Notes under the pieces: generated by a model
The model's database searches: none
What the model saw: the letters and a program-made list of their open reading frames with translations, nothing else
What the model was told of the DNA's origin: nothing
Position numbers and translations under genes: made by a program
Part shown: positions 10,352-14,630 of the stretch, in pieces
Numbering within the stretch: position 1 is the stretch's first letter
Layout: each line of letters opens with the position of its first letter
Source: a virus
Direction: 5' to 3' (one strand)
IMG/VR virus record: IMGVR_UViG_3300009481_000145
Span: 1 to 20,342 of that record
DNA length: 20,342 nt

Positions 10352-10823
10352 CTGATGATTGCTCGTTAAGTTCTACAAAGATTACTTCTTCCTTGGGACA
10401 CGTATAGCACTGACTCGGTGCTCGTCTGTTTAACCGTGTATCAAATGTCTCAGCTACCGTCCACGTATGATACGTGTCTGTGTAAACCAGAGCGGCGTGT
10501 GTCTCCGGCTTGTTAAGAATCACATATACATATGGCTTAGGGTAGGTCTGATCATACGCAGTCATTGCTGTTACGTAGACATCCGCATAGGGATAGTCAT
10601 CACGAGTAGTGAAGTCGAGGTTACGTTTCTTAACCTCGACTCTCAGCGAAATCTCCAGGTCGCCTGTATCGACAAAGTATTTCCACATGTCAGCGGTCGG
10701 TGCTTTACCTGCCTGCTTAACCTGCACAGGCAGGCCGGTTGAATACAACCAGCGTGCCACCTTCCACACATGTTGTTCACTGTCTTTCAAACTCTTTAGG
10801 AATGCCTGATGTGTGTCGTTCAT
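10311..10823 (-). CDS. Putative PD-(D/E)XK-type nuclease-like protein
   Basis: A 170-aa protein. The start at 10823 forms an ATGA overlap with the upstream stop. An in-frame ATG at 10838 would extend it by five residues. Residues about 53-66 read TGDLEISLRVEVKKR, with D55 and an E63-V-K65 pair on predicted strands, the arrangement of the PD-(D/E)XK core. The region before it (WLYSTGLPVQVKQAGKAP) resembles the entry of small restriction-like folds. Three Cys lie in or near QCYTCP. It is the last gene of the minus-strand replication operon. Nuclease activity is a motif-level suggestion only. It could be a substrate-binding relative without catalysis. Confidence 0.55.
   Translation of the reverse strand: MNDTHQAFLKSLKDSEQHVWKVARWLYSTGLPVQVKQAGKAPTADMWKYFVDTGDLEISLRVEVKKRNLDFTTRDDYPYADVYVTAMTAYDQTYPKPYVYVILNKPETHAALVYTDTYHTWTVAETFDTRLNRRAPSQCYTCPKEEVIFVELNEQSSVKFHSPLAILKSA
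10345..10372. repeat. Perfect 8-bp inverted repeat at the convergent gene junction
   Basis: Arms AACTTAAC (10345-10352) and GTTAAGTT (10365-10372) flank a 12-base loop, and the left arm contains the HNH stop codon. It sits where the plus-strand late operon meets the minus-strand replication operon. It is AT-rich and lacks a long T-run on either strand, so I call it only a weak terminator or transcription-collision candidate. Confidence 0.35.
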
Positions 10824-11203
10824 TTTCTTTCGTTCCATAGAATCATTGCATCATCACGGTTGCTCGCTGGTGGGCCTGATGCCAGACAACTGTGACAGGT
10901 AACAACGTATGTATCATCTTCAAAGCCATGGTCTGCCAGTGGCTGATCTTTACTGGTACAGAAGGGACACTCTAGTACCTCCACTTCGTCTGCATCGAAC
11001 TGGTAGAAGCGTCCAAAGGTAAAGAATTCCGTAGCGTACATGTGAGCATTGATCTCATCACGCAAACGTCTTGCATCCTTGCGATCCAGATAGATATGGA
11101 TATCGTTTGCCGAATTCATTTCGCCATTGAGATACAGCTTCTCGGTTGAGAAGTTATATCGAATGCTCAGCGTTGAGCCATCAATGATCCAGTCAATCTG
11201 CAT
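10820..11203 (-). CDS. Lar-like zinc-ribbon protein (restriction alleviation family)
   Basis: Start at 11203 is chosen because GGAG lies seven bases upstream. The ATG at 11209 would have the same GGAG one base away. The C-terminal third shows ECPFC (C79, C82), VTCHSCLASGPP (C103, C106) and finally AMILWNERK, which is the Lar restriction-alleviation pattern of two CxxC knuckles followed by a conserved A-WN-R end. The first 70 residues are an unrelated mixed alpha/beta region, longer than in compact Lar proteins. Lar proteins protect incoming DNA from host type I restriction. The gene directly follows a cytosine methyltransferase gene, which fits an anti-restriction pair. Function is by family resemblance, and many phage Lar-like proteins are uncharacterised. 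Confidence 0.7.
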   Translation of the reverse strand: MQIDWIIDGSTLSIRYNFSTEKLYLNGEMNSANDIHIYLDRKDARRLRDEINAHMYATEFFTFGRFYQFDADEVEVLECPFCTSKDQPLADHGFEDDTYVVTCHSCLASGPPASNRDDAMILWNERK

Positions 11204-11948
11204 GGTCATACTCCATGATCGATCTGCCCAGATACTCGGCTACCTGTGGCACGACGGAATTGCCCAAAGCTTTTATGCGGTCCACTCGGTTGGGAAACCC
11301 ATGACCCATTCGATCCACGTTGGATTGAGTCCCCCATTGACTTTGTCCTGCTTCGCTACGACACAGGCCAAGCGTCTCTTGTGTGCATATTTGGCGAGGA
11401 TGTCCCAGCTCCCCGTGTCTTTGTAATCTCTCGCTGTTGGCGTTGGCAATGATAAAGATTCTGTCCCGTTGGTGCGGTGCGCCAACACTGTTAGCGGGTA
11501 TGCAGTGATGCTCCATGTAGGTGAAGTGCGGTGGACCTTCAGGCAAACCGATCTGGGCCAAGTCGGTATAGATTCTCCCAAGACCCCTGGTAAGCAGAGC
11601 TGAGACGTTTTCCAAGACCAGCCATCGTGGTCGTAATAGGTTGCATATGCGAATGACTTCTGCGTAGAGTCCACTGCGATCACCATCTAATCCTTTTTGG
11701 TGTGATCCCCCAGCGACACTAATGTCTTGGCAGGGGAATCCCGCAGCGATTAAGTCAACGTCCCATTGTCCTTCATCCGGTGGAAAATCTTTTACATCAG
11801 GCAGCGTTGGGATATCAGGCCAGTGTTTGTTCAGTACATACTGTGCATACGGATCGATCTCCACCTGCCATTTGCATTGCCAACCAGCACGCTCAAGGCC
11901 GAGGTCGATCCCACCGATACCGGCAAACAAACTGCCAAAGGTATTCAT
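11193..11948 (-). CDS. C5-cytosine DNA methyltransferase (Dcm-type)
   Basis: Start at 11948 overlaps the DUF3310 stop as ATGA and begins MNTFGSLFAGIGGIDLG, motif I for S-adenosylmethionine binding. Motif IV GFPCQDIS gives the catalytic Cys at residue 73. Motif VI is VLENV (113-115), motif VIII is QRDRIFI (160-166), and the C-terminal motif is KALGNSVVPQVAEYL (226-240). The enzyme transfers a methyl group to cytosine C5 in a short target and probably shields phage DNA from restriction. At 251 aa it is short, and the stretch between motif VIII and the C-terminal motif that should hold the target-recognition region is only about 60 residues. The same DNA read in a second frame also carries methyltransferase-like signatures (see findings). 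All key catalytic motifs are intact. Confidence 0.92.
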   Translation of the reverse strand: MNTFGSLFAGIGGIDLGLERAGWQCKWQVEIDPYAQYVLNKHWPDIPTLPDVKDFPPDEGQWDVDLIAAGFPCQDISVAGGSHQKGLDGDRSGLYAEVIRICNLLRPRWLVLENVSALLTRGLGRIYTDLAQIGLPEGPPHFTYMEHHCIPANSVGAPHQRDRIFIIANANSERLQRHGELGHPRQICTQETLGLCRSEAGQSQWGTQSNVDRMGHGFPNRVDRIKALGNSVVPQVAEYLGRSIMEYDHAD

Positions 11949-12824: not shown

Positions 12825-14540
12825 CTAATATCCAAACGTCTGTGTCTCCGCATCAAATTTTAAAAACACTTTGTCCCTTCGGATTGGTCCGTTACGACGC
12901 TTCGTAATCTGCACCAGATATTTTGGTTCTGTCCCAGCAGCTTTGCCCCTGCCATACCAGTGGCCGAACATGATCATGTCTGCATCGTTCTCAAGTTGTC
13001 CCGACTCCCGCAGCATGTCACTCTTAAAGTCGATCTCTTCCATGCGTTCGACCTCTCGCGATACCTGACACAGTGCAAGCACAGCTACGTCATACTTACG
13101 TGCAATGTGTTTGATCCTTTGCGAGATCTCGGTCACCACCTCATAACGACCGGTGACTTTGTCACTGCGTAGCAACTGGAGGTAGTCGATAATCACAAGC
13201 TGAATCTTGTGCGAGTTAGAGTAGAGTCGTATCGACTGCTCAACATCTGCAATGCTGGCAACACCCTGATAAAAGAACTTTGTATTGCGTAGCTTTGATT
13301 CGATTAAAGGAAGGACCGCGTCCTCGTCCCATGTGGCTTCCTCACCACCGACATACCGCATGACAAGGCGACGACCTATCTCAAACTCAGACATCTCAGC
13401 GTTGAGCATGAGCACAGGTATCCCCTGCTCTGCATTGTGCAGGCCATACTGCAATGCGAATGCACTCTTACCACCGCCTGGTCTTGCACCGAAGATCCCC
13501 ATCTCTCCCCGACCGAGGCCATCAATGGCTCGGTCGAGAGGTTCAATGCCGGTACGAATATACTGCTGACCTGATCGCCGTTTAAAGAACTGCCTGACAC
13601 AGCCAATGGCTAGTGTCTCACCCTTCACTTCACTCGTGCGTTTAGCAACTGACTTGTAAGCATTATCAATGGTGAGCTTGATCCACTCGTCGCTCTTCTT
13701 ATAGCCTTCCTCATCACACCAATGCCGCAGTGCATCGAAGATCTCTTCAGTTGGTATGCGTTGATAGACAGCTTCACATGCAATCTGAAATACGATACTC
13801 GACCGAGAGTTATCTTTACTAGTTTCCCTGGGTATTCCCCGCCACCGGAGAGAGAGGTCGGAGTTTTCAACTGCAAGCAGCTGCTTCATCCGACCACTCA
13901 AACCGCCAGCAGGTTCTGGTGGAGCTGTTGATGTACCAAGCTTATGACAGAACTGTTCGATCTCTTCTTTGCTAACGGTCGTGCAGTCAGCAAACTCGAT
14001 ATCGCACCAGTCACTATCAGGATCGACAAACCTACTGCGATTCCAAAAAGGATACCGCACCAGATTTCCAAGTCCCTTGCCCTTAAGCGTATCCTGACGG
14101 GGATACACTTCTCGGAAATCGATCTTTAGTACACCATCAATCGCCGCCCAAAATCGCCTGATTAGAAAAGCAGGCACAGGCTCTGAGAAGAAGAGCCAGA
14201 CGTGAGCACCATAACCTGAAGCACTGATCTCAAGGCAGGGATCAAACTCCTGTTCCTCTAAGAAGTAATAGAGTTTCTCTGCCTTGTCCCTCCATGCCGG
14301 ATCAGGTTGATCGGGATGGTTATCAAAGTCAATGCAGCTGCATAAGACTGTTGAATCAGGTCGCATTAAATAGAAGCCGAAGCACGTCGTTCCTTCAACG
14401 TGTTCGGCAAGCAGCATCTCTTCAGTCATTGGTTTATGCACAGGCCTGAAGGTGGAACCCTTGGGCTGCGCAGCAATGACATCACTTCTTCCATTGAAGT
14501 ATTTGAGAATCTGCTTAGCGGTATCAGTACTCATTGTCAT
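12825..14540 (-). CDS. Fused archaeo-eukaryotic-type primase and DnaB-like replicative helicase
   Basis: With the ATG at 14540 the protein is 571 aa. Residues about 30-200 form an archaeo-eukaryotic primase core of the type found in TOTE systems: CIDFDNH supplies D71 and D73, SASGYGAHVWLFF supplies H113, and LGNLVRYPFWN follows. Residues about 230-305 are a helical linker resembling PriCT. Residues about 325-571 are a RecA-like SF4 helicase domain with Walker A GARPGGGKS (351-359), Walker B LVIIDYLQLL (D452), the ALCQVSREVE sensor and the RESGQLENDADMIM arginine-finger region. One polypeptide should therefore prime and unwind, as T7 gp4 does, but with an unrelated primase. The start is uncertain: the frame is open to 14621 and no strong ribosome binding site is seen before 14540 or 14534. 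Confidence 0.88.
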   Translation of the reverse strand: MTMSTDTAKQILKYFNGRSDVIAAQPKGSTFRPVHKPMTEEMLLAEHVEGTTCFGFYLMRPDSTVLCSCIDFDNHPDQPDPAWRDKAEKLYYFLEEQEFDPCLEISASGYGAHVWLFFSEPVPAFLIRRFWAAIDGVLKIDFREVYPRQDTLKGKGLGNLVRYPFWNRSRFVDPDSDWCDIEFADCTTVSKEEIEQFCHKLGTSTAPPEPAGGLSGRMKQLLAVENSDLSLRWRGIPRETSKDNSRSSIVFQIACEAVYQRIPTEEIFDALRHWCDEEGYKKSDEWIKLTIDNAYKSVAKRTSEVKGETLAIGCVRQFFKRRSGQQYIRTGIEPLDRAIDGLGRGEMGIFGARPGGGKSAFALQYGLHNAEQGIPVLMLNAEMSEFEIGRRLVMRYVGGEEATWDEDAVLPLIESKLRNTKFFYQGVASIADVEQSIRLYSNSHKIQLVIIDYLQLLRSDKVTGRYEVVTEISQRIKHIARKYDVAVLALCQVSREVERMEEIDFKSDMLRESGQLENDADMIMFGHWYGRGKAAGTEPKYLVQITKRRNGPIRRDKVFLKFDAETQTFGY

Positions 14541-14630
14541 ATGTTTTAAAATGAGGTGAGGGCCAGCAGATCGCGCTGCGGATTGCGACCTGAACGCTTG
14601 GGACAAAGCTCCAGCCCCCACCCCTCTTTA

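Follow-up and report, generated by a model that had tools for sequence, protein, structure and literature searches.

A nested reading frame carrying motif IX is kept by selection inside a family of phage C5-methyltransferase genes

Can the same bases of a phage gene contribute to a DNA methyltransferase in two reading frames at once? This question is raised by a locus on the minus strand of an IMG/VR virus record, of which 20,342 bases were examined (this whole stretch is called the window below, and all positions refer to it). From 11452 to 11273 on the minus strand, one frame (frame A) reads IIANANSERLQRHGEL...DRMGHGFPNRVDRIKALGN, while a second (frame B) reads SLPTPTARDYKDTG...GGLNPTWIEWVMGFPTEWTA followed by a stop. 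The original prediction for this DNA had pointed to these two strings as methyltransferase signatures drawn from the same bases, had considered them too much for chance, and had proposed that either one frame arose from the other by frameshift or both are used. We confirmed that the two strings share their bases exactly as quoted.

Frame A is a long open reading frame with the following features.

11193 to 11948, minus strand: frame A, large (alpha-like) subunit of a C5-methyltransferase, 251 amino acids, with motifs I to VIII and X (profiles, AF2)
11727 to 11735, minus strand: catalytic PCQ of motif IV in frame A, invariant in alignment A5
11247 to 11264, minus strand: motif X of frame A, GNSVVP, invariant or nearly so in alignment A5

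The frame A protein starts with MNTFGSLFAGIGG, ends in RIKALGNSVVPQVAEYLGRSIMEYDHAD and contains the motifs of a C5-cytosine DNA methyltransferase (PF00145), namely I, IV (PCQ), VI (ENV), VIII and X. PF00145 matches it with an E value of 5.9e-41 over residues 3-176 only, corresponding to positions 2-168 of the 324 in the profile, and the N-terminal half is the only part of frame A that this profile covers. TIGR00675 (dcm) matches residues 6-186. The AF2 model of frame A has an overall pLDDT of 85.1 with the catalytic core above 90; residues 1-169 are mostly above 90, residues from about 171 to 230 fall to 46-69 and look disordered, and the helix of motif X is again modeled with confidence. The best PDB matches of this model are M.HhaI structures, over about 175 columns. 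No motif IX was found in the frame A chain by motif reading and comparison with relatives; it is found in frame B instead. Likewise, neither the AF2 model nor the PF00145 match, which ends at 168 of 324, gives frame A a folded recognition domain between motifs VIII and IX. Judging by the modeled pattern, frame A alone would resemble an enzyme deprived of its recognition domain and of motif IX.

Frame B is unannotated in the window. It runs from an ATG at 11686 to a stop codon at 11275-11273, each of its 137 codons beginning one base after a codon of frame A (+1).

11273 to 11686, minus strand: frame B, nested +1 open reading frame, 137 amino acids, putative small (beta-like) subunit with a candidate recognition domain and motif IX (open reading frame, PHROG 1008, selection)
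11570 to 11620, minus strand: frame B WSWKTSQLCL...WPRS over frame A LENVSALL...LAQIG, where synonymous constraint on frame A starts rising, the identity of four-fold third positions going from about 0.3 to 0.43-0.60
11409 to 11452, minus strand: one copy of the PTPxAxD module in frame B, SLPTPTARDYKDTG, over frame A ANANSERLQRHGEL (translation, module counts in relatives)
11276 to 11329, minus strand: motif IX in frame B, LNPTWIEWVMGFPTEWTA, over frame A SNVDRMGHGFPNRVDRI (alignment of L182 and L184, sub-threshold PDB match)

No catalytic motifs I-VIII of its own are present in frame B. PHROG 1008, labeled “DNA methyltransferase”, matches its residues 5-94 (E 1.2e-10), well upstream of the string first noticed, and PHROG 26627 matches the C-terminus at residues 116-136 (E 7e-6). 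A search against methyltransferase families had been suggested as a check for the second-frame string; frame B is family-like across all 137 codons. The string had been read as a signature of a recognition region; it is a real family signature, but MGFPTEWT within it belongs to motif IX (LNPTWIEWVMGFPTEWT in the window) and is not the recognition region itself. GFPN-RVDR and MGFPT-EWT do come from the same bases, the former being merely the reading of frame A on its way to motif X. PTPxAxD is a repeated module of the family, with 0-4 copies per frame B in sampled relatives.

Pfam and NCBIfam searches returned no model for frame B; weak, single-member NCBIfam matches to beta-lactamases were dismissed as chance. 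The AF2 model of frame B alone is of low confidence (pLDDT 62.6, pTM 0.27) and too poor for a fold search. When a frame B profile was compared with the PDB, the only matches were plant DRM methyltransferases, at a sub-threshold E value of 0.93 and located exactly at motif IX. Since a profile of canonical enzymes did not pick up frame B itself with significance, the assignment of motif IX in frame B relies on the relatives L182 and L184, which have this motif in frame A, and on sequence likeness.

The first phage relatives compared show the same double reading. Two scans of IMG/VR, one based on frame A patterns and the other on those of frame B, yielded 80 loci each; 80 loci from bacteria of many phyla were obtained when GTDB genomes were scanned for frame B. 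In 181 of 255 loci, motif IX is read in a frame shifted by +1 from that of motif VIII and of motif X alike, and in 13 more, where no motif VIII was found upstream, it bears this relation to motif X. PHROG 1008 matches all frame B proteins tested (94/94), and 79 of these 94 are also matched by PHROG 26627. Hundreds of related genes in phages and prophages retain this double coding. This breadth bears on the possibility of an insertion or deletion error in sequencing or assembly. Data from the window alone could not exclude such an error, but none of the results favors it. The sister contig L013 shows an identical frame layout and departs from the window at only four places in the long frame A open reading frame, all of them synonymous in A, and the arrangement is common to hundreds of independent relatives. 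The sister contig and the relatives refute an assembly error, and we give it practically no weight. None of the differences in L013 falls within 11686-11273, which is suggestive, the numbers being small.

Individual loci vary in structure. Frame B continues beyond motif IX with an extra PTP module in L111 and L115, and in L115 then runs for more than 100 further residues. An insertion between motifs IX and X of L059 is rich in Cys-X2-Cys pairs and appears HNH- or zinc-finger-like by eye; frame B reads through it. In L009 (Mycobacterium phage Llama, gp74/gp75) and several Cheoctovirus relatives, frame A is broken in two by a single-base change that links the upstream part of frame B to the downstream part of frame A. 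This is apparently a natural mutation common to that set of phages.

Frame B could still be a shadow open reading frame that follows from the protein sequence of frame A, base composition or codon bias. Conserved residues of A do partly constrain B. We compared the genes with versions in which synonymous codons were shuffled within each gene, keeping the A protein and codon usage. For the window alone, frame B has one stop between motifs IV and IX against a mean of 4.3 after shuffling, and 1% of shuffles are as low. Between PCQ and LMGFP of 112 non-redundant genes, 7 stops occur in the +1 frame compared to 344.8 +/- 12.8 in shuffled genes (z about -26); this frame is fully open in 107 genes, while shuffling leaves 5.5 of the 112 open. 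The +2 frame of the same set shows no effect (1023 stops vs 1008 shuffled). In a further comparison of +1 stops, 73 genes were picked by frame A motifs only. These contain 8 stops vs 107.1 +/- 6.6 shuffled between motifs IV and VIII and 7 vs 92.3 +/- 6.7 between VIII and IX; upstream, between motifs I and IV, the counts are 158 vs 182, and the third frame again shows no effect. Six ordinary chromosomal single-chain C5-methyltransferases have 17 stops in the +1 frame between IV and VIII, with 19.2 expected. Among 78 loci picked by frame A only, 73 have no frame B stop between ENV and the vicinity of motif X. As for the remaining five, L059, L078 and L083 have an intact frame B including motif IX that ends normally before motif X, and L085 reads motif IX in frame A, leaving L073 as the sole locus with a true internal stop. 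Relatives in which frame B is freely broken by stops would have spoken against a function, and instead the frame is nearly stop-free.

Four-fold degenerate third positions of frame A are second positions of frame B codons, and their identity among relatives follows frame B. It is 0.27-0.38 in residues 1-105 of frame A, before the constrained stretch of frame B, 0.43-0.68 from LVLENV (11621) to RIKALG (11262) under frame B, and 0.32 and 0.26 after frame B ends. Synonymous sites of frame A are conserved only where frame B runs. Motif IX of frame B occurs in 148 distinct DNA versions whose Pro, Gly and Leu codons vary freely, and therefore what is conserved is the protein of frame B. Selection maintains both frames. 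A shadow frame is refuted at the family level by the shuffles, which destroy frame B while preserving the A protein and codon usage, by the lack of any effect in the third frame and in ordinary enzymes, and by synonymous constraint that stops where B stops; its remaining probability is very small. The view that the two matches are beyond chance is borne out, by the shuffles of the window and overwhelmingly by the relatives, and so is the suggestion that both frames are used, in the sense that selection keeps both. A frameshift relic, in which one frame derives from the other, is not needed to account for two frames under selection.

How could frame B be expressed? Two features lie just upstream of its ATG.

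11691 to 11695, minus strand: AAGGA, Shine-Dalgarno-like, 4 nt upstream of the frame B ATG (sequence)
11687 to 11689, minus strand: TAG in frame B directly before the ATG at 11686, so that frame B starts at least as far along as 11686 in the reading direction (window compared with L013)

One of the differences in L013, at 11688, removes this TAG. In L178, L182 and L184 the frame B ATG is preceded by stop codons of that frame, and GAGGT lies six bases before it. The TAG and AAGGA in the window, together with the stops and GAGGT in these three relatives, favor separate initiation of frame B. An ATG with a Shine-Dalgarno sequence is found in frame B of 24 of 76 genes compared to 9.2 after shuffling; this enrichment is supportive only, because it is partly a by-product of the open frame. 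The original prediction had proposed another route, a programmed slip after motif VIII that fuses frame A with frame B into an alternative enzyme lacking GNSVVPQ. The order VIII (A), IX (B), X (A) does match that of a single-chain enzyme, but a complete enzyme would require two opposite shifts. No obvious slippery heptamer was seen by eye near 11440-11470, where one had been anticipated, and frame B is conserved from about 11620, far upstream of the proposed slip. Frame B, devoid of motifs I-VIII, has a start of its own with a Shine-Dalgarno sequence, located right after stops in the L178 group. A frameshifted fusion is accordingly most improbable, though not quite to the degree of a shadow frame.

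The relationship between the two frames is illuminated by a clade in which motif IX has changed places. In L085, L120, L159, L178, L179, L182 and L184 motif IX is read in frame A, as RLNPDWVEWLMGFP...LGNAVVP; contigs of this clade that carry organism labels are mostly Rickettsiales. The spacing from motif IX to motif X is 81 nt vs 59 elsewhere, a 22-nt difference that shifts the frame. Frame B of this clade ends just before motif IX and retains KTWQ...GRSGMM...PTPTxRDYKD. Frame A proteins of L182 and L184 align in this region to motifs IX and X of the canonical single-chain enzyme profile. In L120, PHROG 1008 is matched by frame B at profile positions 75-214 and by frame A at 242-307, so a single protein family is shared out between the two frames, with the division at that point. 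Natural sequences show that motif IX is able to switch frames, and the evidence from this clade therefore indicates that it belongs to the same enzyme in either frame.

Another possibility is that frame B is a real overlapping gene with an independent product, such as a regulator or an anti-defense factor, rather than an enzyme subunit. Streptococcal phage enzymes of the MM1 type are relevant here. Their frame A encodes the complete enzyme as one chain, including LTPRECWRLQGFPDWAF and GNSVTV, yet their +1 frame is open over motifs IV-VIII in 29 of 30 non-redundant genes (2.9 expected); between VIII and X it is not kept open (318 stops vs 326). The shorter nested open reading frame of these genes (7631-8056 in L256, phage MM1, and also present in L257-L335) belongs to PHROG 16143, the family of ORF14, which is the nested product of MM1. 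Since MM1-type single chains keep a +1 frame without motif IX, the N-terminal part of the nested protein needs a role beyond supplying this motif. Two totally overlapping C5-methyltransferases in different frames have been described in Streptococcus thermophilus phages of the 5093 group (PMC5601072, which cites MM1 and Tn5252 as earlier cases), and the +1 pattern of the MM1-type genes fits this remark. The 5093-group phages, MM1 (ORF13/ORF14) and Tn5252 resemble our locus in having two methyltransferase-like products from the same DNA in different frames; the difference in MM1 is that the long frame is complete with motif IX, while the nested one covers only IV-VIII. The MM1-type frames and the lack of a confident fold for frame B alone would suit an independent function. 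Against it, frame B has the motif IX that frame A is without, this motif moves from B to A in one clade, and frame A has no ordered recognition region. We consider an independent product unlikely, although it is the most plausible of the alternatives to a nested enzyme subunit.

A two-chain enzyme of this kind would have a known counterpart. The small chain of M.EcoHK31I is also nested in the gene of the large chain, in another frame. Here too, as in M.EcoHK31I (and M.EaeI), the large chain has motifs I-VIII and X and the small chain has motif IX, and at this locus and in its family the putative small chain is likewise read from a different frame within the gene of the large one. This likeness is one of motif layout. 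In M.EcoHK31I, the large subunit accommodates motifs I-VIII and X as well as the predicted recognition domain, and motif IX is located in the small subunit (PMC3404938). In contrast, the large chain described here is without a folded recognition region, and it is the nested chain that has a variable PTPxAxD region in addition to motif IX. Frame A has no ordered domain at that place, and frame B is the constrained frame there, its model being of low confidence. M.AquI is also a C5-methyltransferase of two polypeptides, split inside the variable region so that the small subunit has motifs IX and X (PMC3404938); motif X stays in the large chain at our locus, which is thus not split in the AquI manner.

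Some phage annotations already contain such pairs. Paenibacillus phage Shelly has the same A and B frames as g55 and g56, the latter annotated as “g55 internal gene”, and ORF40/ORF41 of Lactobacillus phage Lc-Nu (“putative methylase”) are known from annotation as two open reading frames under one methyltransferase match. Both pairs were annotated case by case with no mechanism given, and the labels of PHROG 1008 (“DNA methyltransferase”) and PHROG 26627 (unknown) are silent on nesting inside another methyltransferase gene. That frames for C5-methyltransferases overlap in some phages had been noted before, so the kind is known; for the breadth of the family, the evidence of selection and the relocation of motif IX we found no earlier description in open-access PMC papers.

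The gene downstream of frame A is of interest for the possible role of the enzyme.

10820 to 11209, minus strand: gene with a Lar restriction-alleviation domain (PF14354, E 1.3e-7), overlapping the frame A stop by 17 nt (profile)

The methyltransferase and the Lar gene could form an anti-restriction module or pair. No cognate restriction enzyme was recognized in the scanned parts of the window. Elsewhere in the window, at 12825-14621 on the minus strand, a gene encodes a fused archaeo-eukaryotic primase (TOTE type) and DnaB-like helicase.

Selection acts on both frames, frame A is without motif IX and a folded recognition domain, and frame B has motif IX. We consider it very probable that the locus encodes one C5-methyltransferase as two polypeptides, with a nested, internally started small chain in the manner of M.EcoHK31I, most likely with an anti-restriction role. 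Frame A would provide the catalytic chain with SAM binding, the catalytic PCQ and motifs VI, VIII and X. Frame B would be translated separately from the internal start at 11686 as a nested small subunit that supplies motif IX and probably also the region for target recognition. Together the chains are expected to form a complete enzyme, whose most likely task is to methylate the DNA of the phage as protection from restriction by the host. Counted against this explanation are the low-confidence AF2 model of frame B, the nested frame of the MM1-type genes and the location of the recognition domain of M.EcoHK31I in the large chain.

It is conceivable, at slightly less than even chances in our judgment, that these genes represent a large and mostly unrecognized class of phage and prophage C5-methyltransferases in which specificity resides in the nested frame, the 0-4 PTPxAxD modules set the number of sites, and motif IX migrates between frames by small length changes. 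The family offers dual-coding genes in which selection on each of the frames is very strong and can be measured, and in which a motif has been transferred naturally between them. If the two-chain explanation is true, many phage “DNA methyltransferases” have been annotated as half an enzyme, and recoding of frame A, as in codon optimization, would destroy the other half and make a construct look inactive. M.BatI, an active orphan prophage enzyme, is described as 20-30% smaller than typical enzymes, with an even shorter recognition domain (PMC8936443). Nested frames may explain such unusually small phage C5-methyltransferases.
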